A stretch of DNA of 64,000 nucleotides, from the NCBI RefSeq assembly GCF_901686465.1, contig NZ_LR594487.1, positions 3,237,773 to 3,301,772 on the forward strand, written 5' to 3'. Of this stretch, positions 32,439-51,382 are shown piece after piece. The notes below the pieces were generated by a model, which saw only the letters and a program-made list of their open reading frames with translations, was not told the origin of the DNA and ran no database searches. The translations under genes and the position numbers were made by a program. The first letter of the stretch is position 1; each line of letters begins with the position of its first letter. This DNA comes from Halorubrum sp. DM2. Lineage in GTDB: Archaea > Halobacteriota > Halobacteria > Halobacteriales > Haloferacaceae.

Positions 32439-32539
32439 CGTTCCCTCGTCGCGGTCGGCGACATCGGCGGGTCGACCGCGTCGACGCCCCGAACGTCTTC
32501 GGGGTCAGGAGTACCCGGCGGGAACGGTAACCCCTCGGC

Positions 32540-33175
32540 ATGCCGGGTTTCCCCTCTCCGTTCGGCTCCGACGACGACGGCCTGTTCGACGGCTACGACG
32601 AGTTCGCCCCTGCGAGCGTCCCCCGTCCGGGCGATTTCCTCGACGGCCACGACGTCCTCACGGGCGCGGACCACCTCGCGTTCCACCGGCTCACCCGCGA
32701 CTGCTTTGAGGAGCGGAAGGTGTACGACATGACGTTCGACTACAACCTCGCGCGGCTGAACCTCGACACCCGCCACGAGGACGCCGGGTTCCGCTACGCC
32801 GTCGAGCGGAGCGACGCGCCGGACGCGACGGACTCCGTCGCGATCGAGGACGCCGCCGTCGACGCCGACCGCGTCCTCCGCGCGGAGTTCACGCCGACGA
32901 CGGCGTTCTGCCCCCAGACGCACACGCTGACTATCGGCGCGTTCCGCGCGTGGAACGGGCTCGCGGACCGCCACGAGTACGACCTCGTCCGGGTCCGCGC
33001 GGCCCCGATGCACAACCAGAGCGAGGCGGTGAACGACCGGCTCGCGGAGTTGGAGACGAGCTACCTCGAAACGGGCGACGTGGAGGCGGACGACGGCCCC
33101 GGAGTCGGAGCGCCGGCGGCGGGCGGAGCGACCGAGACGGAGACGCGGGAGCGCTCGACCGACGCGCCGTTCTGA
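32540..33175 (+). CDS. Conserved haloarchaeal protein, unknown (weak MIP18/DUF59-like hint)
   Basis: A 211-residue cytoplasmic protein. The middle (about residues 105-145) reads EFTPTTAFCPQTHTLTIGAF, where a Cys-Pro follows a hydrophobic strand. This weakly recalls the SPxCP/Cys region of MIP18/PaaD-like (DUF59) proteins used in Fe-S or metal-centre assembly. That resemblance is a guess. A second Cys sits in TRDCFEERKVYD. The last 45 residues are acidic and end DAPF. It converges on the four-repeat DUF2249 gene with a 16-bp gap, and the two may be functionally associated. Confidence 0.55.
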   Translation: MPGFPSPFGSDDDGLFDGYDEFAPASVPRPGDFLDGHDVLTGADHLAFHRLTRDCFEERKVYDMTFDYNLARLNLDTRHEDAGFRYAVERSDAPDATDSVAIEDAAVDADRVLRAEFTPTTAFCPQTHTLTIGAFRAWNGLADRHEYDLVRVRAAPMHNQSEAVNDRLAELETSYLETGDVEADDGPGVGAPAAGGATETETRERSTDAPF

Positions 33176-33205
33176 GTCGGGATCAGTCCGGTCAGAACGG
33201 GGCGC
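33164..33205. terminator. Inverted repeat spanning the stop codons of two convergent genes
   Basis: GCGCCGTTCTGA (33164-33175) pairs with TCAGAACGGGGCGC (33192-33205), apart from two unpaired bases, across a 16-base loop. Each arm contains one gene's stop codon, so it is placed to end transcription from both directions. It has no poly-T tract, so the terminator role is inferred from position and symmetry. Confidence 0.5.
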
Positions 33206-34295
33206 TCGTCCCCTCCGTCGCGCCGTGGTCGTGATTCTCGGCGTCGGCCGCGCGTTTCCCGATCAACACACGGAACTCGCCCGGCTCCTGACGGCGGTAC
33301 TCCCAGTGGAACTCCGGCCCGGCCTCGGCCTCGAACTGGTGGTACAGCGGCTTCGGGTCGTGGTCGTTCACGAGGACGAACCCGTCCCCGTCGTCGAGGG
33401 CCGCGTACGCGTCGAATATCTCCTCGTGGCGCTGGGCCGGCGGCAGGTCGCGCACGTCGAGTTCCCGCGTGACCGCGGGCGACCCGTCGCTCGCTGTCGT
33501 CGCCTCGTTCTCCGACGCGGTTTCTGCGTCGTCGATCTCCGAGTCCGCGGCCTCGGACGTCGCCTCCGCCGACGCCGAGCCCTCGGTCTTCGTGATCCGG
33601 ACGCGACACCGGCCGGGTTCCTGCTCGACCACCTCCCACCGGAAGGCGTCGCCGTAGCGCTCGCGGAACTCCCCGTGGAGCGGCCGCGGCTCGTGGGGGG
33701 CGATCAGCTCCATCGTCTCGCCGTCGGGGATCATCCGGTACCGGTGGTGGATCGTCTCGTGGCGGTCCGCCTTCGGGATCTCGCGGACGTCGAACCGCGT
33801 GAACGCCTCGGACTCGGCGGCCGTCGCCTCGTCGGTCTTCTCGATCGCGACCCGCCACTCGCCCGCCCCGCGGCTCGCGTACTCCCACCCGACGACGTCG
33901 CCGTACGTGGACCGCAGTTCGTAGTACAGCGGCTTCGGGTCGTGGTCGTTCACGAGGACGAACCCCTCGTCCGGTTCGAGGCGGTCGAACGCCTCCACCA
34001 AGGCCGCGTGTCGCCGCCGCGGCGGCAGGTCGCGCACGTCGGCCGTCCCCGACGCCGGGCCGTCGAGTTCGCCGCGGTCGACCGCGCGGACCTCGCGGGG
34101 CCCCGCGTCGCCGCCGTCGTGTTCCCACTCCACGTCGCGGCCGCGGTCGATCTGGTACCGGATCAGGTGGACGTCGACGTCGCGGTCGGCGGCGATCAGG
34201 AGCTCTTCGCCCGGCTCGACCCCGTCGAGCGCGTCGCGGATTCGGTCTCGGTACTCGTCGTCCGGCCGGTCTCGGAGGTCGATATCGGTAGTCAT
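33192..34295 (-). CDS. Four-repeat DUF2249 protein
   Basis: A 367-residue cytoplasmic protein made of four DUF2249 units joined by acidic linkers. Repeats 2 and 4 (about residues 86-155 and 278-350) are near-complete: DVRDLPP then RH, then GFVLVNDHDPKPLY, then WEY and RV(A/L)I. Repeat 3 (about 168-235) has the variant APHEPRPLHGEF. Repeat 1 (5-75) is degenerate and lacks the HDP core (IAADRDVDVHLIRY). DUF2249 proteins are often encoded near nitrogen-oxide and hemerythrin genes and are thought to bind a redox or metal ligand, unproven. A palindrome shared with nosZ lies 44 bases upstream. Confidence 0.85.
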   Translation of the reverse strand: MTTDIDLRDRPDDEYRDRIRDALDGVEPGEELLIAADRDVDVHLIRYQIDRGRDVEWEHDGGDAGPREVRAVDRGELDGPASGTADVRDLPPRRRHAALVEAFDRLEPDEGFVLVNDHDPKPLYYELRSTYGDVVGWEYASRGAGEWRVAIEKTDEATAAESEAFTRFDVREIPKADRHETIHHRYRMIPDGETMELIAPHEPRPLHGEFRERYGDAFRWEVVEQEPGRCRVRITKTEGSASAEATSEAADSEIDDAETASENEATTASDGSPAVTRELDVRDLPPAQRHEEIFDAYAALDDGDGFVLVNDHDPKPLYHQFEAEAGPEFHWEYRRQEPGEFRVLIGKRAADAENHDHGATEGTSAPF

Positions 34296-34338: not shown

Positions 34339-34350
34339 CGAATGTGTTCG
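34339..34350 (-). promoter_or_regulatory. CGAA-N4-TTCG palindrome upstream of the DUF2249 repeat gene
   Basis: The 12-mer CGAATGTGTTCG lies 44-55 bases upstream of the ATG at 34295. It matches the sequence before nosZ (CGAACGTGTTCG) at 11 of 12 positions, and is flanked by C and G, extending the arms to CCGAA/TTCGG. It is a candidate activator site at about -45 to -50 if transcription begins close to the ATG. Confidence 0.5.
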
Positions 34351-35640: not shown

Positions 35641-36731
35641 GCGCTCACACCGAGTTCGAGGTCCGCCAGCGTCTCGTTGAGCAGCGCGACCGCCTCGCGG
35701 GTCTCCTCGCGGGTGCCGGTCGAGATCCGAACGTGTTCCGGGAGGCCGAACGAGGTACAGTCCCGGATTATCACGCCGCGCTCCTGTGCCGCCTCGGCGA
35801 CGCGCTCGCCGTCGCCGACCGCGGCGAGGACGAAGTTCCCGGCGGAGTCGACGGTCGGCGCGGCGAGCTCGTCGGCGATGTACCCGCGGGCCCAGCGGGA
35901 GGTCTCGACCGTCTTCTCGACGTGTTCGTCGTCGTCGAGCGCGGCGAGCGCGGCCCGGCAGGCCAGCTCGTTCGCCGCGAACGGGGTGTTAACCCGGGCG
36001 TACGCCTCCCCCCACGCCTCGGGGACGACGCTGTAGCCGATCCGGAGCCCGGCGAGCCCGTACGCCTTCGAGAAGGTCCGGAGGACCGCCACGTCGTCGC
36101 GCTCGTCGACGAGCGGGATCGCGCTGTCGATATCAGCGAACTCGCCGTACGCCTCGTCGACGACGACGAGCGTCTCCTCGGCGGTCGCGTCCGCGATTGC
36201 CTCGACCTCGTCGAGCGGCATCGTGGAGCCGGAGGGGTTGTGCGGCGAGGTGACGTAGACGATCCGCTCGCCGCCGTAGGCGGACAGCACCGTCTCTGCG
36301 TCCTGCGCGAACCCGTCTGCCGGAGAGAGGTCGTACTCCGTCACCTCGCCGTGGTGGTACCGCGACGACATCGCGTAGTAGGCGAAGCCGGGACTCGGTA
36401 CCAACACCTCGTCGCCCGGCTCAAGGGCGGCGCGCGAGAGGTAGTCGATAGAGCCGTCGGCCCCCGGCGACACCCACACCTGCTCGTCGTCGACGCCCCA
36501 CTCCGCCGCGATCTTCGCGGTGAGGTCCGTATGCGAGGACTTCGGGTACTGGTTCACCCGGTCGGCGTGCTCGCGGATCGCCTCGACGGCCGCCGGACTC
36601 GGGCCGTGCGGGTTCTCGTTCGAGGAGAGCTTGATGAGGTCGTCGGAGTCGATCCCGCGCTCGCGGGCGACCTCCTCGACGCCCCGCCCGGGCACGTACG
36701 GCGAGTGATCGGAGAGATCACGTGGTTCCAT
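35637..36731 (-). CDS. hisC: Histidinol-phosphate aminotransferase
   Basis: A 364-residue PLP enzyme that transfers an amino group to imidazole-acetol phosphate in histidine synthesis. The opening LSSNENPHGPSPAA and GRGVEEVARERG are typical of HisC. The PLP lysine is in RTFSKAYGLAGLRIGY, and the SPHNPSG motif binds the cofactor. Its stop overlaps the next gene's GTG, making the three-gene hisC-kinase-CDP-alcohol transferase unit. The C-terminus ends TLADLELGVSA. A phenylalanine/tyrosine role is also possible. Confidence 0.93.
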   Translation of the reverse strand: MEPRDLSDHSPYVPGRGVEEVARERGIDSDDLIKLSSNENPHGPSPAAVEAIREHADRVNQYPKSSHTDLTAKIAAEWGVDDEQVWVSPGADGSIDYLSRAALEPGDEVLVPSPGFAYYAMSSRYHHGEVTEYDLSPADGFAQDAETVLSAYGGERIVYVTSPHNPSGSTMPLDEVEAIADATAEETLVVVDEAYGEFADIDSAIPLVDERDDVAVLRTFSKAYGLAGLRIGYSVVPEAWGEAYARVNTPFAANELACRAALAALDDDEHVEKTVETSRWARGYIADELAAPTVDSAGNFVLAAVGDGERVAEAAQERGVIIRDCTSFGLPEHVRISTGTREETREAVALLNETLADLELGVSA

Positions 36732-43756: not shown

Positions 43757-43768
43757 CGAACGTGTTCG
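43757..43768 (+). promoter_or_regulatory. CGAA-N4-TTCG palindrome upstream of nosZ
   Basis: CGAACGTGTTCG lies 35 bases upstream of the nosZ TATA box and 98 bases before the ATG. Related 12-mers occur upstream of both DUF2249 genes. The half-sites recall the CGAAC/GTTCG motif I remember being reported for denitrification promoters bound by NarO in Haloferax volcanii; the spacing there may differ. A candidate activator site. Confidence 0.5.
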
Positions 43769-43802
43769 CGCGCTTCCTACCGCACAGGGAGCCGCTTGAC
43801 GT

Positions 43803-43810
43803 GATTTATA
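43803..43810 (+). promoter_or_regulatory. TATA box of the nos operon
   Basis: TGATTTATACC lies 56-63 bases upstream of the nosZ ATG, predicting a leader of about 30 bases. Confidence 0.5.
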
Positions 43811-43865: not shown

Positions 43866-45785
43866 ATGTCAAATGACACACAGCGGTCCACGGACGCGGA
43901 ATCGGGCAACCAGACGACCGGCTCGACCGACGGGTTCGACTCGCTGCTCCCCGGCGTCCGTCGCCGCGACTTCATGAAGGCCGGCGCTGCGGTCGGCGGG
44001 ATCAGCGGGCTGGCGGGCTGTTCCAGCCTGCTGAACGAGGACGACGGCGTCGACGGAACGGCCTCGGCGAGCGGCGTCGACAACTCCGTCCCGCCGGGCG
44101 AACACGACGAGTACTACGCGCTGCTGTCCGGCGGGCAGGCCGGCGACGTCCGCGTGTACGGGCTCCCGTCGATGCGCGAACTCATCCGGATCCCGGTGTT
44201 CAACCCGGACGCCTCGCGCGGCTACGGGTTCGACGACGAGAGCAAGCAGATGCTCGAAGACGCCGGCGGCTACTCGTGGGGCGACACCCACCACCCGCGG
44301 ATCAGCCAGACCGACGGCGACTACGACGGCCGGTTCGCGTACGTCAACGACAAGGCGAACGGTCGGATGGCCCGGATCGACCTGACGTACTTCGAGACGG
44401 ACGCCATCGTCGACATCCCGAACCAGCAGGGGACCCACGGCGCGTGCGCCCAGCTGCCCGACACCGACCTCATCTTCGGCGTCGGCGAGTTCCGGACGCC
44501 GATCCCCAACGACGGGAGCGGGAACCTCGAAGATCCGGACTCCTACGGCTCCGTGCTCGCCGCGATCAACCCCGAGTCGATGAACGTCGAGTGGGAGGTC
44601 CTCATCGACGGCAACATGGACAACGGCGACGGGAGCAAGGAGGGTCGGTACTTCTTCACGAGCGCGTACAACACCGAGGAGGCCGCGACCGAGTCGGGGA
44701 TGACCCGCGCCGACCGCGACGACGTGAAGGCGTTCGATATCCCCCGGATCGAGGCGGCCGTCGAGGCCGGCAACTACGAGACGATAAACGAGGTGCCGGT
44801 CGTCGACGGGCGGAAGGACAGCCCGCTCAACCAAGGCGACGAACCTATCGTCACCTACATCCCGACGCCGAAGAGCCCGCACGGAGTCAGCGTCACCCCG
44901 GACAACGAGTACGTGATCGTCAGCGGGAAGCTCGACCCGACCGCGTCGATCATCGACATCGACAAGATCGACGAGGTCGACGACCCGACCGACGCCATCG
45001 TCGGCCAGCCGAAGCTCGGTCTCGGGCCGCTCCACACCGCCTACGACGGGCGGGGCCACGCGTACACGACGCTGTTCATCGACTCGCAGGTCGTCAAGTG
45101 GGACATCGAGGAGGCGGTCAACGCCGAGCCGCGCTCCGAGAGCCCGGTGATAGAGAAGATCGACGTGCACTACAACCCCGGCCACCTCATCGCCGCGGAG
45201 TCGTACACGGAGGACCCGGCGGGCGACTGGCTCATCTCGCTGAACAAGCTCTCGAAGGACCGGTTCCTCCCGGTCGGTCCGCAGCACCCGGAGAACGACC
45301 AGCTGATCTACATCGGCGACGACGAGAACGGGATGGAGCTGGTGAAGGACTCGCCGGCGCAGGCCGAGCCGCACGACGCGTCGATCTGTCACAAATCGAA
45401 GCTCGACCCGAAGGCGGTCTACGACCCCGAGGACCTCGAACTCAGCCACACGGCCGAGGGCGAGTCGTCGATGGAGCGGGTCGGCGACGACCGCGTCGAG
45501 ATCGAGATGTACTCGACCCGGAACCACTACGGGTTCCAGGAGATGGTCGTCCAGGAGGGCGACGAGGTCGAGATGCAGGTGACGAACATCGAGACCACGA
45601 GCGACATGCTCCACTCGGTGGCGATCCCGGACCACGATGTCCACATGCGGATCGCCCCGCAGGAGACGCGCAAGGCGACGTTCACCGCGGACGAGCCGGG
45701 CGTCTACTGGATCTACTGCGCGCACTTCTGCAGCGCGCTGCACTTGGAGATGCGCTCGCGGCTCATCGTCAAACCGGAGGAATAA
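43866..45785 (+). CDS. nosZ: Nitrous-oxide reductase NosZ
   Basis: A 639-residue copper enzyme that reduces N2O to N2 outside the membrane. A Tat signal (RRRDFMK, residues 32-38) ends in a lipobox-like LAGC (Cys52), so it may be a lipid-anchored protein. The CuZ-type His ligands are visible in DTHHPRIS, SPHGVSV, LHTAYDGRGH, HYNPGHL and EPHDAS across a beta-propeller. The C-terminal cupredoxin has the CuA site CAHFCSALHLEM (Cys618, Cys622, His626, Met629), plus His in MLHSVAI. Length matches known NosZ. It is first in a five-gene coupled operon. Haloarchaeal NosZ is known to be Tat-exported. Confidence 0.97.
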   Translation: MSNDTQRSTDAESGNQTTGSTDGFDSLLPGVRRRDFMKAGAAVGGISGLAGCSSLLNEDDGVDGTASASGVDNSVPPGEHDEYYALLSGGQAGDVRVYGLPSMRELIRIPVFNPDASRGYGFDDESKQMLEDAGGYSWGDTHHPRISQTDGDYDGRFAYVNDKANGRMARIDLTYFETDAIVDIPNQQGTHGACAQLPDTDLIFGVGEFRTPIPNDGSGNLEDPDSYGSVLAAINPESMNVEWEVLIDGNMDNGDGSKEGRYFFTSAYNTEEAATESGMTRADRDDVKAFDIPRIEAAVEAGNYETINEVPVVDGRKDSPLNQGDEPIVTYIPTPKSPHGVSVTPDNEYVIVSGKLDPTASIIDIDKIDEVDDPTDAIVGQPKLGLGPLHTAYDGRGHAYTTLFIDSQVVKWDIEEAVNAEPRSESPVIEKIDVHYNPGHLIAAESYTEDPAGDWLISLNKLSKDRFLPVGPQHPENDQLIYIGDDENGMELVKDSPAQAEPHDASICHKSKLDPKAVYDPEDLELSHTAEGESSMERVGDDRVEIEMYSTRNHYGFQEMVVQEGDEVEMQVTNIETTSDMLHSVAIPDHDVHMRIAPQETRKATFTADEPGVYWIYCAHFCSALHLEMRSRLIVKPEE

Positions 45786-45789
45786 CGCC

Positions 45790-46572
45790 ATGCGCTCGTC
45801 GCTCGCGCGGCTGACCGAGATCCGACGCGCGCTCCCGCTGGCAGCGGCGGCGCTGCTCGTCGGCGCGCTGTTGGTCCCGATGTGGCAGATCACGCTCACG
45901 GCACCGCAGTACCCCGGTCAGGAGCTGCTCATCGAGCTGTACGCCTACCCGCGTCTGGGCGGCGACTTCGCCGAGGTACAGGGACTCAACAAGTACGCAG
46001 GGTTCTACTACCCCGATCCGGTGTTCATCGACCCGAACTACGAGGTGGCGGCGGCGGCCATCGACGTCCCCGAGTGGCTGCTCGGTCCGGTCGTGTTCGT
46101 CGGGCTGGCGCTGACCGGCGCGTTCGTCGCGTTCGCGCCGACTGTCCGCAAGCTGAAGGCCGGACTCACCGCGCAGTTCGTCGGGACGATCACCGTCTTC
46201 GTCGGGATGTTCGCGTTCATCCAGTACCGGCTCTATCAGGCCGGCCACTCGCTCGACCCCGACGCGCCGCTCCGGGGTATCGAGGGGTTCACGCCGCCGC
46301 TTCTGGGGGCCTACGAGGTGGCCAACATCAGCGGCTTCGCGTGGTTCGGTCCCGGGGGGTACATGACCGTCGTCGCCCTCGCGCTGCTCGCGACCGCGTA
46401 CCTCGCGCGGGACATCGAGGCGACCGTGAGCGAACTCCCGGCGCTCGCGGTCGCGCTCCCCGGCGCGGTCCGCGAACGGGTCGCGAGCGGTGAGGGCGGC
46501 GACCGAGGCCAAAACGACGCCGACTCGACCACCACCGATCGCGACATCGGCGGAGGTGACCATGCCCGATGA
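45790..46572 (+). CDS. NosB-like membrane protein in the nos operon
   Basis: A 260-residue protein with about five membrane helices (near residues 15-35, 95-115, 130-150, 185-200, 200-215), no Cys or metal motif. The extracytoplasmic loops contain APQYPGQELLIELYAYPRLGG and YYPDPVFIDPNYEV. It starts 4 bases after the nosZ stop and overlaps nosD by 11 bases. Clade II N2O-reduction clusters often encode a membrane protein of this size, called NosB, at this place. I infer equivalence by position and shape only. The C-terminal 40 residues are polar and acidic. Confidence 0.6.
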   Translation: MRSSLARLTEIRRALPLAAAALLVGALLVPMWQITLTAPQYPGQELLIELYAYPRLGGDFAEVQGLNKYAGFYYPDPVFIDPNYEVAAAAIDVPEWLLGPVVFVGLALTGAFVAFAPTVRKLKAGLTAQFVGTITVFVGMFAFIQYRLYQAGHSLDPDAPLRGIEGFTPPLLGAYEVANISGFAWFGPGGYMTVVALALLATAYLARDIEATVSELPALAVALPGAVRERVASGEGGDRGQNDADSTTTDRDIGGGDHAR

Positions 46573-48058
46573 CCGCGTCGAGGCCGGCTTCCTCGCGGCC
46601 GCCTGCGTCGTCGCGGCGCTCGGGATCGCGCTCGCCCTCGGGGTCCCTGCCGCCGGCGTGGGTGCGGCGGACGCGAGCGAGGCGGGAGCGACGCTGAACG
46701 CCGCCACCGACTCCGGACTCACCGTCGCGACCGACGTGGCCGCGACGGGCGCGACCGCGCCCGACCGCGACGGGACCGCGACGCTCGACGGAGAGTCGTT
46801 CGCGTCGGCGCAGGCGGCGGTCGACGCCGCCGAGCCGGGCGACACGGTCGTCCTCGACGGGCGGTTCGACGAGCGCGTGAACGCGAGCGTCGACGATCTG
46901 CGGCTCGTCGCGAGCGACGGCGGCGCGGTGATCGACGGCGGCGGCGAGGGACGCGTGCTCACCGTGAGCGGCGAGAACGTCACCGTCTCCGGCGTCTGGA
47001 TACGCGGCTCTGGCAGCGACCTCGGGACCGAGGACGCCGGCGTCTTCGTCTCCGGGGACCGCGCCCGGGTCGAGTCGGTCCGGATCACCGACACGGCGTA
47101 CGGGATCTGGATCGATTCGGCCGACGAGGCCGTCATCGAGGACGTTCGAATCGACGGCCGCGAGGAGGTGTTCCCGCGGACCGACCGCGGGAACGGGATC
47201 CACCTGTACGAGACGACGGGCACGGTCGTCCGCGACAGCGAGATCGCGGACGCCCGTGACGGGATCTACTTCTCGTGGGCGGCGGACGTGCTCGCCGAGA
47301 ACAACACGATCCGGAACACGCGGTACGGCGTCCACTACATGTACTCGGACGACAACCGACTCGTCGACAACGTCGCGGCCGACAACGGCGTCGGCTACGC
47401 GCTGATGGTGAGCGAGGGGCTGACGGTGCGGAACAACACCGCCCTCCGAAACGACGACAGCAGCGGCCACGGGATCATGGCCAAGGACATCGAGGACTCG
47501 ACGATCGCGGGTAACCACCTCGTCGCGAACCGGAACGGCCTGTACCTCTACAACGCGCAGGGGAACCGGCTCGTCGACAACCTGATTTACCGCAACGGGA
47601 TCGGGGTCCACAGCGCCGCCGAGAGCGGGAGCGAGGTCGTCGCGGGCAACAGCTTCGTCCGCAACGACCGAGCCGTCGAGACCGTGCGGAACTCGCTCGC
47701 CGCGTGGAACGGCACCGACCGCGGCAACTACTGGTCGGGCGCTCGCGTCGCCGACCGCGACGGCGACGGCGTCAGCGAGATCCGACACCGACCCGTCGGG
47801 ATTGTCGAGAACCTCGTGGCCGACCACCCGCAGGCCGCGGCGTTCGTCGACAGCCCGGCGTTCGAGGCGGTGCGGATGGCCGAGAGCTCCTTCCCGGTCA
47901 TCGAGACGCCCGGCGTCATCGACCGCCACCCCCTCGTCGAGCCGAACCACGACTGGCGGGCGTACGAGCCGGACGGCACGGCGAACGCCGGCGGGCGCAC
48001 CGGCGACGGGACGGCCCGCGCCGCGAACCGAACCGCGGACACGGAGGACACACCATGA
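46562..48058 (+). CDS. nosD: Copper-site maturation protein NosD
   Basis: A 498-residue exported protein with a right-handed beta-helix built of repeats with short Asn/Gly-rich turns (e.g. GIYFSWAADVLAENNTIRNT and later NRNGLYLYNAQGNRLVDN). NosD works with NosF and NosY to load or assemble NosZ's tetranuclear copper site. The N-terminus has a hydrophobic signal segment (about residues 10-33). The C-terminus has a short Ala/Arg-rich tail. The ATG at 46562 overlaps the preceding gene by 11 bases, and its TGA overlaps nosF as ATGA. Confidence 0.92.
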   Translation: MPDDRVEAGFLAAACVVAALGIALALGVPAAGVGAADASEAGATLNAATDSGLTVATDVAATGATAPDRDGTATLDGESFASAQAAVDAAEPGDTVVLDGRFDERVNASVDDLRLVASDGGAVIDGGGEGRVLTVSGENVTVSGVWIRGSGSDLGTEDAGVFVSGDRARVESVRITDTAYGIWIDSADEAVIEDVRIDGREEVFPRTDRGNGIHLYETTGTVVRDSEIADARDGIYFSWAADVLAENNTIRNTRYGVHYMYSDDNRLVDNVAADNGVGYALMVSEGLTVRNNTALRNDDSSGHGIMAKDIEDSTIAGNHLVANRNGLYLYNAQGNRLVDNLIYRNGIGVHSAAESGSEVVAGNSFVRNDRAVETVRNSLAAWNGTDRGNYWSGARVADRDGDGVSEIRHRPVGIVENLVADHPQAAAFVDSPAFEAVRMAESSFPVIETPGVIDRHPLVEPNHDWRAYEPDGTANAGGRTGDGTARAANRTADTEDTP

Positions 48059-48861
48059 AAATCGACGCGACCGACGTGCGGAAGACGTACGATGACGTGA
48101 CCGCCCTCGACGGGCTCTCGCTTTCGGTCCCGAGCGGCTCGACGTTCGGGATCATCGGCACCAACGGGGCCGGCAAATCGACGCTGTTCCGGCTGCTCGT
48201 CGGTCACGACCGGCCGGACACCGGGACGGTCGCCGTCGGCGGCACCGACGTGACCGAGAACGGGCGGCAGGTCCGCGAGCGCGTCGGCTACCTTCCGGAA
48301 CACATCGGCTTCCCGGACGGGCTCACCGGCCGGGAGGTGCTGGGGGTTCACCGGGCGATCCGCGGCCTCCCGACGGACGGTCGGACCGCCGAGGCGATCG
48401 AACGGGTCGGACTGACCCCCGACGAGGCCGACCGCCGCGTCTCGGGCTACTCGAACGGGATGTGCCGCCGGCTCGGGCTGGCGACGGTGCTGTTGCCCGA
48501 CCCCGACATCTTGATCCTCGACGAGCCGACCGCGGGACTCGACCCGCGCGGCGTCGACGAGTTCCACGCCATCGTCGAGGAGATAGCGACCGACACCGAC
48601 GCGACGGTGGTGTTCTGTTCGCACGTGCTCGGCGAGGTCGAGCGTCTCTGCGACCGCGCGGCCGTCCTCCACGCCGGTCGCGTGTGCGCGGCGGGCCCCG
48701 TCGGCGAACTCGCGACCTCCGAGACCGGAGGGCCCGGCGAGTGCGACGGCGACGCGGCGGACAAGACGAACCCCGACGGCGGTCTCCGCGCCGCGTTCCG
48801 CGAGGCGGTCGGGGACCGGCCACGCGACGCCAGCGCCGAGCGCGAGGAGGTGACACCATGA
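48055..48861 (+). CDS. nosF: ABC transporter ATP-binding protein NosF
   Basis: A 268-residue ABC ATPase. Walker A is GTNGAGKST (about residues 40-48), the signature is SGYSNGMCRRLG and Walker B is DILILDEPTAGLDP. It should power NosDFY transport of the sulfur species or metal needed for NosZ's copper centre. Its start overlaps nosD, and its stop overlaps nosY (ATGA), so the three are translationally coupled. The signature has SNGM in place of the common SGGQ, as often seen in the NosF/CcmA group. Confidence 0.94.
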   Translation: MKIDATDVRKTYDDVTALDGLSLSVPSGSTFGIIGTNGAGKSTLFRLLVGHDRPDTGTVAVGGTDVTENGRQVRERVGYLPEHIGFPDGLTGREVLGVHRAIRGLPTDGRTAEAIERVGLTPDEADRRVSGYSNGMCRRLGLATVLLPDPDILILDEPTAGLDPRGVDEFHAIVEEIATDTDATVVFCSHVLGEVERLCDRAAVLHAGRVCAAGPVGELATSETGGPGECDGDAADKTNPDGGLRAAFREAVGDRPRDASAEREEVTP

Positions 48862-49877
48862 GTGACCCGACTGAGCGACCGACAGCGGAGCCAGAAGTGG
48901 AGGAAGCTGCGAAGAGAGATGAACGGGAGGGAACCCGCCCCGACGGCGGCCACCCCGACGCGACGGCCGCGGTGAGCGCGCTCGACGGCGGCACGGACGC
49001 CGAGGCGACGGACTCGATGTCGCAGGCGACCGCGGACGCCGCCGAGACCGAGGCGAGCGACGGCGTGCGCGATGCGCTCCGCCACGTCTTCGTCGTCGCC
49101 GTCACCGAGTACCGGCTGGCGGTCCGGAGCCGGTGGGCGCTCGCGTTGACCGGGCTGTTCGTCGTCTTCGGCGGGGTGATCATGACGTTCAGCGGCTCCG
49201 CGGTCGGGCCGGCGGGCGCGGAGCGCGTCGTCGCGTCGCTGACGAGCCTCGCCGCCTACCTCGTCCCGCTCGCGGCGCTCGCCTTGGGCTACGACGCGAT
49301 CGTCGGCCGCGAGGACGAGGGGTGGCTCGCGGTCGTGTTCTCGCTGCCGGTCCGCCGGAGCGAGGTCGTCGCCGGGACGTACCTCGGACGGGGGACCGTG
49401 CTGGCGGGCGCGACGGTCCTCGGGTTCGCCTTCACCGGCGCGCTGATCGTCCGCGAGTTCGGGATCGGCGCGTTGTCCGCGTTCCTCGGGTTCCTCGGCG
49501 GCGCGGTCGCCGTCGGGGCCGCGTTCCTCTCGGTCGCGATCCTGCTGTCGACCGTCGCCAGCGAGAAGACCCACGCGCTCGGCGCGTCGCTTCTGGTCTG
49601 GGTGTGGTTCGTGTTGGTCCACGACCTGCTCGCGCTCGGCGTCGTCGCGGCCGTCGAACTGCCGGACGCCGCGCTGTCGGCGCTAGTCCTCTCGAACCCG
49701 GTGAGCGCGTTCCGCGTGCTCGTCTTGAGCGGACTGGGCACGACGGCCGGCGGCGGGTTCACCGCCGTCCTCGCCGGCAGCGGGCTCTCGACGGTCTCGC
49801 TGTCGCTCGCGCTCGTCGCGTGGTGCGTCGTCCCCCTCGCCGCCGCGGCCGTGCTGGTTCGGCGACGGCGGCTGTGA
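48858..49877 (+). CDS. nosY: ABC transporter permease NosY
   Basis: A 339-residue permease with an unusually long acidic cytoplasmic N-terminus (about residues 1-70), then six membrane helices. The region RWALALTGLFVVFGG begins helix 1, and VFSLPVRRSEVVAGTYLGR is the typical coupling-helix segment of NosY/ABC-2 permeases. It overlaps nosF by 4 bases and is the last gene of the operon. No nosL or nosR is found before or after the operon within this window. The acidic lead may be a halophilic extension. Confidence 0.9.
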   Translation: MSDPTERPTAEPEVEEAAKRDEREGTRPDGGHPDATAAVSALDGGTDAEATDSMSQATADAAETEASDGVRDALRHVFVVAVTEYRLAVRSRWALALTGLFVVFGGVIMTFSGSAVGPAGAERVVASLTSLAAYLVPLAALALGYDAIVGREDEGWLAVVFSLPVRRSEVVAGTYLGRGTVLAGATVLGFAFTGALIVREFGIGALSAFLGFLGGAVAVGAAFLSVAILLSTVASEKTHALGASLLVWVWFVLVHDLLALGVVAAVELPDAALSALVLSNPVSAFRVLVLSGLGTTAGGGFTAVLAGSGLSTVSLSLALVAWCVVPLAAAAVLVRRRRL

Positions 49878-50214: not shown

Positions 50215-50898
50215 CTACTGAATCCGCTCGATCCCGTCGTCGTCCGGCGAGTCGAAGTCGACGGGGCGGCGCGGGAGGTCGTCGACGAACTCCCGGACGA
50301 TGGTGCGCTCGACGCGCTGGAGCACCTCGCTACAGGTCGATTTGGCGATACCGACGTGGTCAGCCACCTCGGTGAGCGTGGTCTCCCGGGGCACGTCGTA
50401 GTAGCCGCGGTCGACCGCCTCGAAGAGGACCTCGCGCTGGCGTTCCGTGAGCGATCCGCCGGGGTTCACGCGCTGTTGGACGTACTCGACCTCGAAGTCG
50501 GCCCCCACGTCGCGGAGCGCGTCGCCGAACTCCGCGACGCGCTCGTGGTCGCCCGTGACGTCGACGCGGGCGACGCCGTCGCGGATCTCGACCGGCATCT
50601 CGATGGGAACCCCCGCCCGCTTGGCGACGGTCTGGAGCAGCGGGACGAGCGCCTCGACCTGAACGGTGACCATCCCGTCGTCTTCGGCCATCACCGAGGA
50701 GTGCGTGATCGTGTTGTGGTCCGCGATCGCGTCGAGGATCGGGTCCGTGTCGTCGTCGGTGATCCGGACCAGCGCGAACCCCGCGCCGTCGTCGGGCGTC
50801 GCCGTCAACACCTGAAACCGCACGTCCGGGAACTCCCGCGAGACGTCGCCGACCCACGGGCCCTCCGGGATGTCCACGCGGAGGCGTGCCTGTGCCAT
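50215..50898 (-). CDS. HTH-10 (Bat-type) transcriptional regulator
   Basis: A 227-residue haloarchaeal regulator. A sensory N-terminal domain (1-155, with RFQVLTATPDDGAGFALVRI and the IEMPVEIRDGVARVDVTGDH segment) precedes the HTH-10 domain: LTERQREVLFEAVDRGYYDVP then TLTEVADHVGIAKSTCSEVL. No Cys-rich cluster is present, unlike NarO-type regulators. The start at 50898 precedes MAQARLRVDI. It diverges from a DUF2249 gene and sits next to the nos operon. Between them is a palindrome related to the nosZ upstream site, so it may regulate both. Confidence 0.85.
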   Translation of the reverse strand: MAQARLRVDIPEGPWVGDVSREFPDVRFQVLTATPDDGAGFALVRITDDDTDPILDAIADHNTITHSSVMAEDDGMVTVQVEALVPLLQTVAKRAGVPIEMPVEIRDGVARVDVTGDHERVAEFGDALRDVGADFEVEYVQQRVNPGGSLTERQREVLFEAVDRGYYDVPRETTLTEVADHVGIAKSTCSEVLQRVERTIVREFVDDLPRRPVDFDSPDDDGIERIQ

Positions 50899-50949
50899 GC
50901 GCGTGCGTTCGGTGCCGGCGTGAAAGTACCTTCGGCTCCGCGACCGTCG

Positions 50950-50960
50950 GAACATGTTCG
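50950..50960. promoter_or_regulatory. GAACATGTTCG palindrome between HTH-10 and DUF2249 genes
   Basis: A perfect 10-base palindrome GAACATGTTC, continuing as TTCG, lies 52 bases from the HTH-10 start and 40 bases from the DUF2249 start. It resembles the nosZ and DUF2249-repeat sites (GAACGTGTTC, GAATGTGTTC). It overlaps an in-frame ATG at 50954, which suggests that ATG is not the true start. Confidence 0.5.
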
Positions 50961-50998: not shown

Positions 50999-51382
50999 AT
51001 GGCATCCGAGACCGGCGATCCGGCGGCGATCGAACGGGCGGTGGCCGAGCGGACGGACGCTCCCGCGGGCGGGGAGACGGTCCCCCTCGACGTCCGCGAG
51101 CTGGGGCCGCCGAAACCGCTCCGCGAGACGCTCGAACGCGTCGAGACCCTCGGCGACGACGACGTGTTGGTCCAGTACAACGACCGGGCCCCGCAGTTCC
51201 TCTTCCCGCGGCTTGACGACCGCGGGTTTGCGTACGCCGCGGTCGAGACCGACGCGACCGACGCGGTCGTCACGGCGATCTGGCCGGCGGACGGCGAGGG
51301 CGGCGTCTCGGCGGGCGAGGAGGCGGCGTCGGACGGCCCCGGCGCGACCGATCCGTCTCCGGGCAGCGCGCCGAACCCGTAA
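50999..51382 (+). CDS. Single-domain DUF2249 protein
   Basis: A 127-residue protein if started at 50999 (MASETGDPAA); an earlier ATG at 50954 would add 15 residues. The DUF2249 core is recognisable: PLDVRELGPPKPLRETLERVE, then a VQYNDRAPQFLFPRL segment in place of the HDP core, then AVVTAIWPA. It is transcribed divergently from the HTH-10 regulator. The palindromic site overlaps the earlier start, so the later ATG is preferred. The last ~25 residues are a Gly/Ala/Ser tail. Confidence 0.7.
   Translation: MASETGDPAAIERAVAERTDAPAGGETVPLDVRELGPPKPLRETLERVETLGDDDVLVQYNDRAPQFLFPRLDDRGFAYAAVETDATDAVVTAIWPADGEGGVSAGEEAASDGPGATDPSPGSAPNP

Follow-up and report, generated by a model that had tools for sequence, protein, structure and literature searches.

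The palindrome located upstream of nosZ and two DUF2249 genes in the analysed stretch of DNA (64 kb, referred to below as the window) is rather likely to be an operator of a haloarchaeal denitrification/NO regulon, in which an activator of the HTH_10 family would act at core promoters that include a two-dyad type. This explanation, taken as a whole, is built on the observed sites, their spacing, their enrichment and the identities of the genes behind them.

The first-pass annotation had placed three palindromes upstream of nosZ and the two DUF2249 genes, about 40-100 bases before a start codon, and all three were found there: CGAACGTGTTCG at 43757-43768, CGAATGTGTTCG at 34339-34350 and GGAACATGTTCG at 50949-50960. 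The form CGAA-N4-TTCG that it gave them holds for the first two; the third begins with GGAA, i.e. it lacks the outer C and carries one mismatch. The operator-like site CGAACGTGTTCG (plus strand) is separated by 97 bp from the ATG (43866) of the nitrous-oxide reductase gene nosZ (43866-45785, plus strand; TIGR04244, 704.8 bits against a cut-off of 625), and is kept at 96-97 bp in four congeners. On the minus strand, the copy at 34339-34350 reads CGAACACATTCG and lies 43 bp from the ATG (34295) of a gene for a 367-aa protein with four DUF2249 domains (33192-34295, minus strand; PF10006 in four stretches, 276.6 bits). The third copy is placed between two divergent genes, 38 bp from the ATG (50999) of a gene for a 127-aa single-domain DUF2249 protein (50999-51382, plus strand; PF10006, 52.2 bits) and 50 bp from the ATG (50898, minus strand) of an HTH_10 gene; its sequence is identical in four congeners. 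Both DUF2249 proteins exceed the PF10006 cut-off of 29.5. Another copy, CGAACGTCTTCG (32490-32501, plus strand), absent from the earlier list, is intergenic and precedes a 211-aa ORF by 38 bp.

Within the window, CGAA-N4-TTCG occurs five times against 2.27 expected, a number reached by 5 of 100 shuffles, and two of the copies are intragenic (8615 and 22088). The count is close to chance, so the window alone proves nothing. The 10-mer GAAC-N2-GTTC occurs seven times (1.36 expected), and five of the copies, including the one at 35729, lie in coding sequence, in agreement with the earlier caveat that this 10-mer is not unique to promoters. By themselves, the CGAA-N4-TTCG figures for the window would suit an origin by chance or from the composition of a GC-rich haloarchaeal genome, in which CGA and TTCG are common words. 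The significance of the motif derives instead from its refined centre and its spacing, the window statistics being too weak.

The refined form, CGAAYRTRTTCG, is present in nine copies in the 3,454,955-base (3.45-Mb) genome, and all nine are intergenic; with about 10% (9.7%) of the window being intergenic, the chance of this is 0.097^9, or ~1e-9. CGAAYRTRTTCG was written after viewing the copies of the window and the motif from the literature and so is a description fitted to this genome; the tests in relatives were performed with the plain CGAA-N4-TTCG of the first-pass annotation. The genome-wide counts were obtained from pattern searches and the stretches around the matches, and are valid for the stated patterns only. 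CGAAC-N2-GTTCG as such has 48 genomic copies, and among 12 sampled copies with other centres just four were intergenic, which indicates that the centre matters. Copies of CGAAYRTRTTCG are located upstream of nosZ (97 bp), the four-domain DUF2249 gene (43 bp), a 78-aa DUF2249 gene (38 bp), a gene for a DUF2249-cupin protein (41 bp), a ThiS-like gene divergent from norB (38 bp), and genes for a haloarchaeal 2Fe-2S ferredoxin (77 bp), a two-cupredoxin protein (64 bp) and a plastocyanin/azurin-type protein (70 bp). The site is thus present at every one of the genome's four DUF2249 genes (seven domain matches), in exact form at three and with a single mismatch at one. The ninth copy, an exact CGAACGTGTTCG at genome position 2713427 (L118:4928-4939), lies in an AT-rich region; a tRNA-like gene follows after ~110 bp, and the copy has no adjoining protein gene. 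It matches no promoter of a protein gene and may be due to chance.

A similar motif at denitrification promoters of Haloferax, given in the first-pass annotation as CGAAC/GTTCG with a spacing that might differ, is real. It has been described as CGAAYATDKTYG in Haloferax mediterranei, and a similar motif has been credited to Hattori et al. 2016, with Halorubrum included (PMC10062603, PMC11218638). Its half-sites and N4 spacing are those of the window sites, and it likewise lies upstream of nosZ, nor, nirK, DUF2249 genes and a Bat-like gene. Each of the window sites differs from it by one mismatch, namely G for A at position 6 (43757 and 34339) or G for C at position 1 (50949). Being within one base of the published motif, they are probably not a new element. 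In the present genome, the motif stands before nosZ and in the vicinity of norB (genome position 363238, where a weaker copy is near the start of norB), and CGAACATGTTCG, the exact form of H. mediterranei nosZ and nor, is found in two copies elsewhere. The norB frame apparently starts upstream of the called start (L115:2758-5250), and the weaker site, CGAACATGTTGC, shortly precedes that ATG.

Of 146 genomes of the haloarchaeal order, 85 gave a DUF2249 match. Among the 149 distinct DUF2249 genes of this set, 115 carry CGAA-N4-TTCG 25-130 bp upstream, compared with 0 for each of 11 other arrangements of the half-site letters; these genomes are related and non-independent, and permuted or reversed controls address composition, not ancestry. 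The motif thereby passed the enrichment check that the first-pass annotation had proposed. With gene starts taken from a simple purpose-made caller, the distance from site to start is 36-46 bp in 92 of the 149 genes, peaking at 38-41 bp, and 24 of 28 genera have at least one site-bearing DUF2249 gene. In a set of 80 named haloarchaeal loci, 242 copies are intergenic (226 kb) versus 49 in coding sequence (725 kb), and the commonest other half-sites fall mostly in coding sequence. The order-wide enrichment, the fixed spacing, the absence of permuted half-sites, the nine intergenic copies of the refined site and the composite element presented below (44 matches versus 0 in the control) leave chance or composition practically no room as the explanation. 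Alignment of the haloarchaeal DUF2249 proteins revealed at least three sequence types, NDHEPKPL, NSFEPxPLY and NDRxPQFLF.

When the DUF2249 promoters were aligned on the site, G was found at +1 and +2 (80% and 64%), and A at +5 and +6 (83% and 75%) and at +12 (68%); no clear TATA box was seen in these aligned promoters. In the 40-bp class, position -12 relative to the start codon is an A. This layout suggests leaderless promoters with a BRE-like element directly after the site, which would then be in an activator position. According to the proposed mechanism, the DUF2249 genes, the 211-aa gene and the regulator gene of many relatives would have the site immediately before a promoter with the conserved AA (BRE-like), ~40 bp from the start codon; the mRNA would probably be leaderless, and the bound activator would recruit TFB/TBP.

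An operator bound by a repressor, which would block the DUF2249 and denitrification genes in air and free them in low oxygen or NO, is an improbable alternative. In about ten relatives the site directly adjoins the start codon of the regulator, a repressor-like place that suggests negative autoregulation, and autoregulated divergent pairs are common among repressors. However, most DUF2249 promoters have an activator layout, with a poor TATA box and a site that stops short of the AA element instead of covering it. Moreover, mutations of the motif in H. mediterranei lowered, rather than raised, the activity of the nosZ and nor promoters, the two for which this was shown (PMC10062603). In the active promoters of that species the motif is located 66-79 bp before the start. 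All four of its DUF2249 genes rise under denitrification, and two of them, together with a Bat-like gene, carry the motif (PMC10062603, PMC11218638). Activation is the preferred reading.

The best, albeit unproven, candidate for the protein that binds the palindrome is the clade of the HTH_10 (Bat-type) regulator encoded next to the single-domain DUF2249 gene (227 aa; 50215-50898, minus strand; PF04967, 66.1 bits against a cut-off of 23.1), since the divergent HTH_10/DUF2249 pair with a site between the genes recurs across haloarchaeal families. Almost all of the 44 intergenic sequences of such pairs (some loci giving more than one pair) contain one to three exact or one-mismatch sites. Among the 72 regulator genes in the 80 loci, 54 have a site within 300 bp, with favoured gaps of 37-38 bp, and for 33 a DUF2249 gene is found in divergent orientation no more than 1.2 kb away. 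Loci L111, L048, L108, L163, L175, L184 and L189 have a further copy that abuts or nearly abuts the HTH_10 start. A strong HTH_10 homologue is present in 79 of the 85 genomes with DUF2249, compared with 28 of the 61 without it (relatedness uncorrected).

Against the explanation stand 27 genomes that encode a strong HTH_10 homologue in the absence of DUF2249, the sites at the regulator start codon mentioned above, the one-base difference of each window site from the published consensus, and the promoter of the window regulator itself, which has just the one-mismatch site, 50 bp from the start; the nearest relatives of this regulator in other Halorubrum and in Halopenitus have neither the site nor a DUF2249 neighbour. 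In a tree of 160 HTH_10 homologues the site label takes 16 changes, and the window-type regulators with a divergent DUF2249 gene form a small group beside relatives lacking both. An independent-pairs test of DUF2249 neighbour against site gave the same direction wherever both differ, with too few pairs for significance.

The window regulator resembles the NarO/DmsR/Bat activators in its C-terminal HTH_10 domain, its short two-part organization and its anaerobic-respiration targets. It differs from them in that no match to DmsR_N (PF24277) was found in this protein or in 10 relatives, and in the weak match to the BAT domain, shared by its close relatives. Comparison of its structural model (pLDDT 87) with the PDB gave no meaningful neighbour (best TM 0.44 over the query), and no sensor function is therefore claimed for it.

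It is conceivable, with perhaps a quarter of the weight, that the palindrome is a true operator bound by another HTH_10 paralogue, of NarO/DmsR type and encoded elsewhere in the genome, and that the adjacent HTH_10 gene is merely a target. The genome holds some 16 HTH_10-like genes, and no regulator of the pathway other than NarO of H. volcanii has been described. Furthermore, sites precede several more distant HTH_10 homologues, and in locus L304 an HTH_10 gene whose product does match the DmsR_N profile has a site 50 bp upstream. On the other hand, the recurrent divergent DUF2249 pair and the promoter site belong to the clade of the window regulator, and the motif works in H. mediterranei, although the authors of that study, to whom its binding protein was not known, found no NarO homologue there (PMC10062603). 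In the explanation that we favour, the product of 50215-50898 would most likely bind CGAAC-N2-GTTCG as a dimeric activator.

The nosZ promoter has a different arrangement from that of the DUF2249 genes. A second dyad, TTCC-N9-GGGA (43774-43790, plus strand), begins 5 bp after the site and is followed by a TATA-like box, TTTATA (43805-43810, plus strand). The dyad also follows the site in the other site-bearing nosZ promoters, where an AT-rich box is found at ~ +37 from the site. TTCC-N9-GGAA was intergenic in 61 of 72 distinct cases, 41 of them within 60 bp of a CGAA site; the loci concerned had been selected on other grounds and over-represent regulator promoters. Spacers of 7, 10 and 11 bases gave no link to the CGAA site, and a spacer of 8 a weaker one.

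An unbiased whole-genome search of the 146 genomes was performed with a composite pattern (CGAA-N4-TTCG, 4-7 bases, TTCC-N9-GGRA). It returned 44 matches in 35 genomes, versus none for the reversed pattern, and the sole match in the genome studied here was the nosZ promoter. Behind the composite in 30 loci (L385-L414) were genes for copper-oxidase/nirK-type proteins (7), norB (6), nosZ (2), halocyanin (2), hybrid-cluster protein (2), molybdopterin oxidoreductase (2) and DUF2249 (1); the remaining loci had uncharacterised genes, no called gene, or an apparently chance match. By eye, weaker two-dyad versions were recognized in Haloferax larsenii, Natronorubrum aibiense and Natronococcus occultus, in front of nosZ or its operon.

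We propose that at nosZ, and in relatives at norB, nirK-type, halocyanin and hcp genes, the site would be distal and would work together with TTCC-N9-GGRA, placed 5-6 bp downstream of it and just upstream of the TATA-like box. Given the two dyads, such genes may read two regulators. A full two-input promoter code is a tentative extension that we regard as possible but doubtful: it would combine the HTH_10 activator on CGAAC-N2-GTTCG, a DUF2249 partner, encoded divergently from the activator and tuning it as sensor or co-factor, and a putative second regulator on TTCC-N9-GGRA, about two helical turns away, at nirK-type, norB, nosZ and hcp genes.

The sites are not confined to genes of N2O reduction. 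The exact CGAACATGTTCG was located between genes in 26 of 28 loci (from 59 genomes), with HTH_10, DUF2249, ThiS-like, cupredoxin, SCO1, Cu-ATPase, AhpC and copper-oxidase genes behind it and, in four genomes, a gene for a hybrid-cluster protein (Prismane). The first-pass annotation had suggested a small regulon tying DUF2249 proteins to N2O reduction. The link between DUF2249 and nosZ stands, given the site at every DUF2249 gene of this genome and at 115 of the 149 in the order; the restriction to N2O reduction was too narrow, as the set extends to norB, cupredoxin and ferredoxin genes in this genome and to hcp and nirK-type genes in relatives. The presence of hybrid-cluster protein and NorB among the targets, with the known roles of these families, suggests that NO is part of the signal, which would be low oxygen and/or NO.

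In the window, nosZ is followed on the same strand by nosD (46562-48058; PF05048) and by nosF/nosY-like ABC transporter genes (48055-49877, comprising 48055-48861 and 48897-49877; PF00005, PF12679). With nosZ and norB but no match to copper nitrite reductase (NirK) over the family cut-off in its genome (G000:C1:3446023-3446613), the organism may be a partial denitrifier, and the full denitrification chain is therefore not claimed. The NarH C-terminal domain profile gave no match; as it was also silent in Haloferax volcanii, this result carries no information.

The 211-aa ORF (32540-33175, plus strand) encodes a conserved haloarchaeal protein with no Pfam or NCBIfam match, whose homologues were identified in 26 of 59 haloarchaeal genomes. 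An exact site precedes the gene in 9 of 20 loci, mostly at 37-38 bp, and several of the other loci carry a one-mismatch site in the same place. The gene is a candidate member of the regulon.

A DUF2249 protein has been studied in Thermus thermophilus, where DrpA, a proposed nitrate sensor, is under the control of a denitrification regulator and feeds back on the expression of the pathway (PMC6282519). Unlike drpA, the single-domain DUF2249 gene of the window has no visible DrpB partner, but a divergent HTH_10 gene instead, and its product belongs to the NDRAPQFLF rather than the NDHEPKPL type.

Already known are the motif and, in one species, its link to DUF2249 genes and a Bat-like gene; the published work on CGAAYATDKTYG describes one motif and no binding protein. 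What looks new is the generality of the site and its spacing across the order, the recurrent divergent HTH_10/DUF2249 pair, the second dyad and the 211-aa gene. For the dyad TTCC-N9-GGRA the novelty is apparent and provisional: no mention of it was found in the two open papers on the CGAAYATDKTYG motif, to which the search was confined.

How archaea switch denitrification, and whether it is completed to N2 or leaks N2O, is poorly known. The conserved HTH_10/DUF2249 pair provides one concrete candidate protein for binding of the motif, and common promoters link the DUF2249 proteins and the 211-aa protein to nitrogen-oxide metabolism. The second dyad, if confirmed, would mean that a second regulator acts on the gas-handling enzymes.
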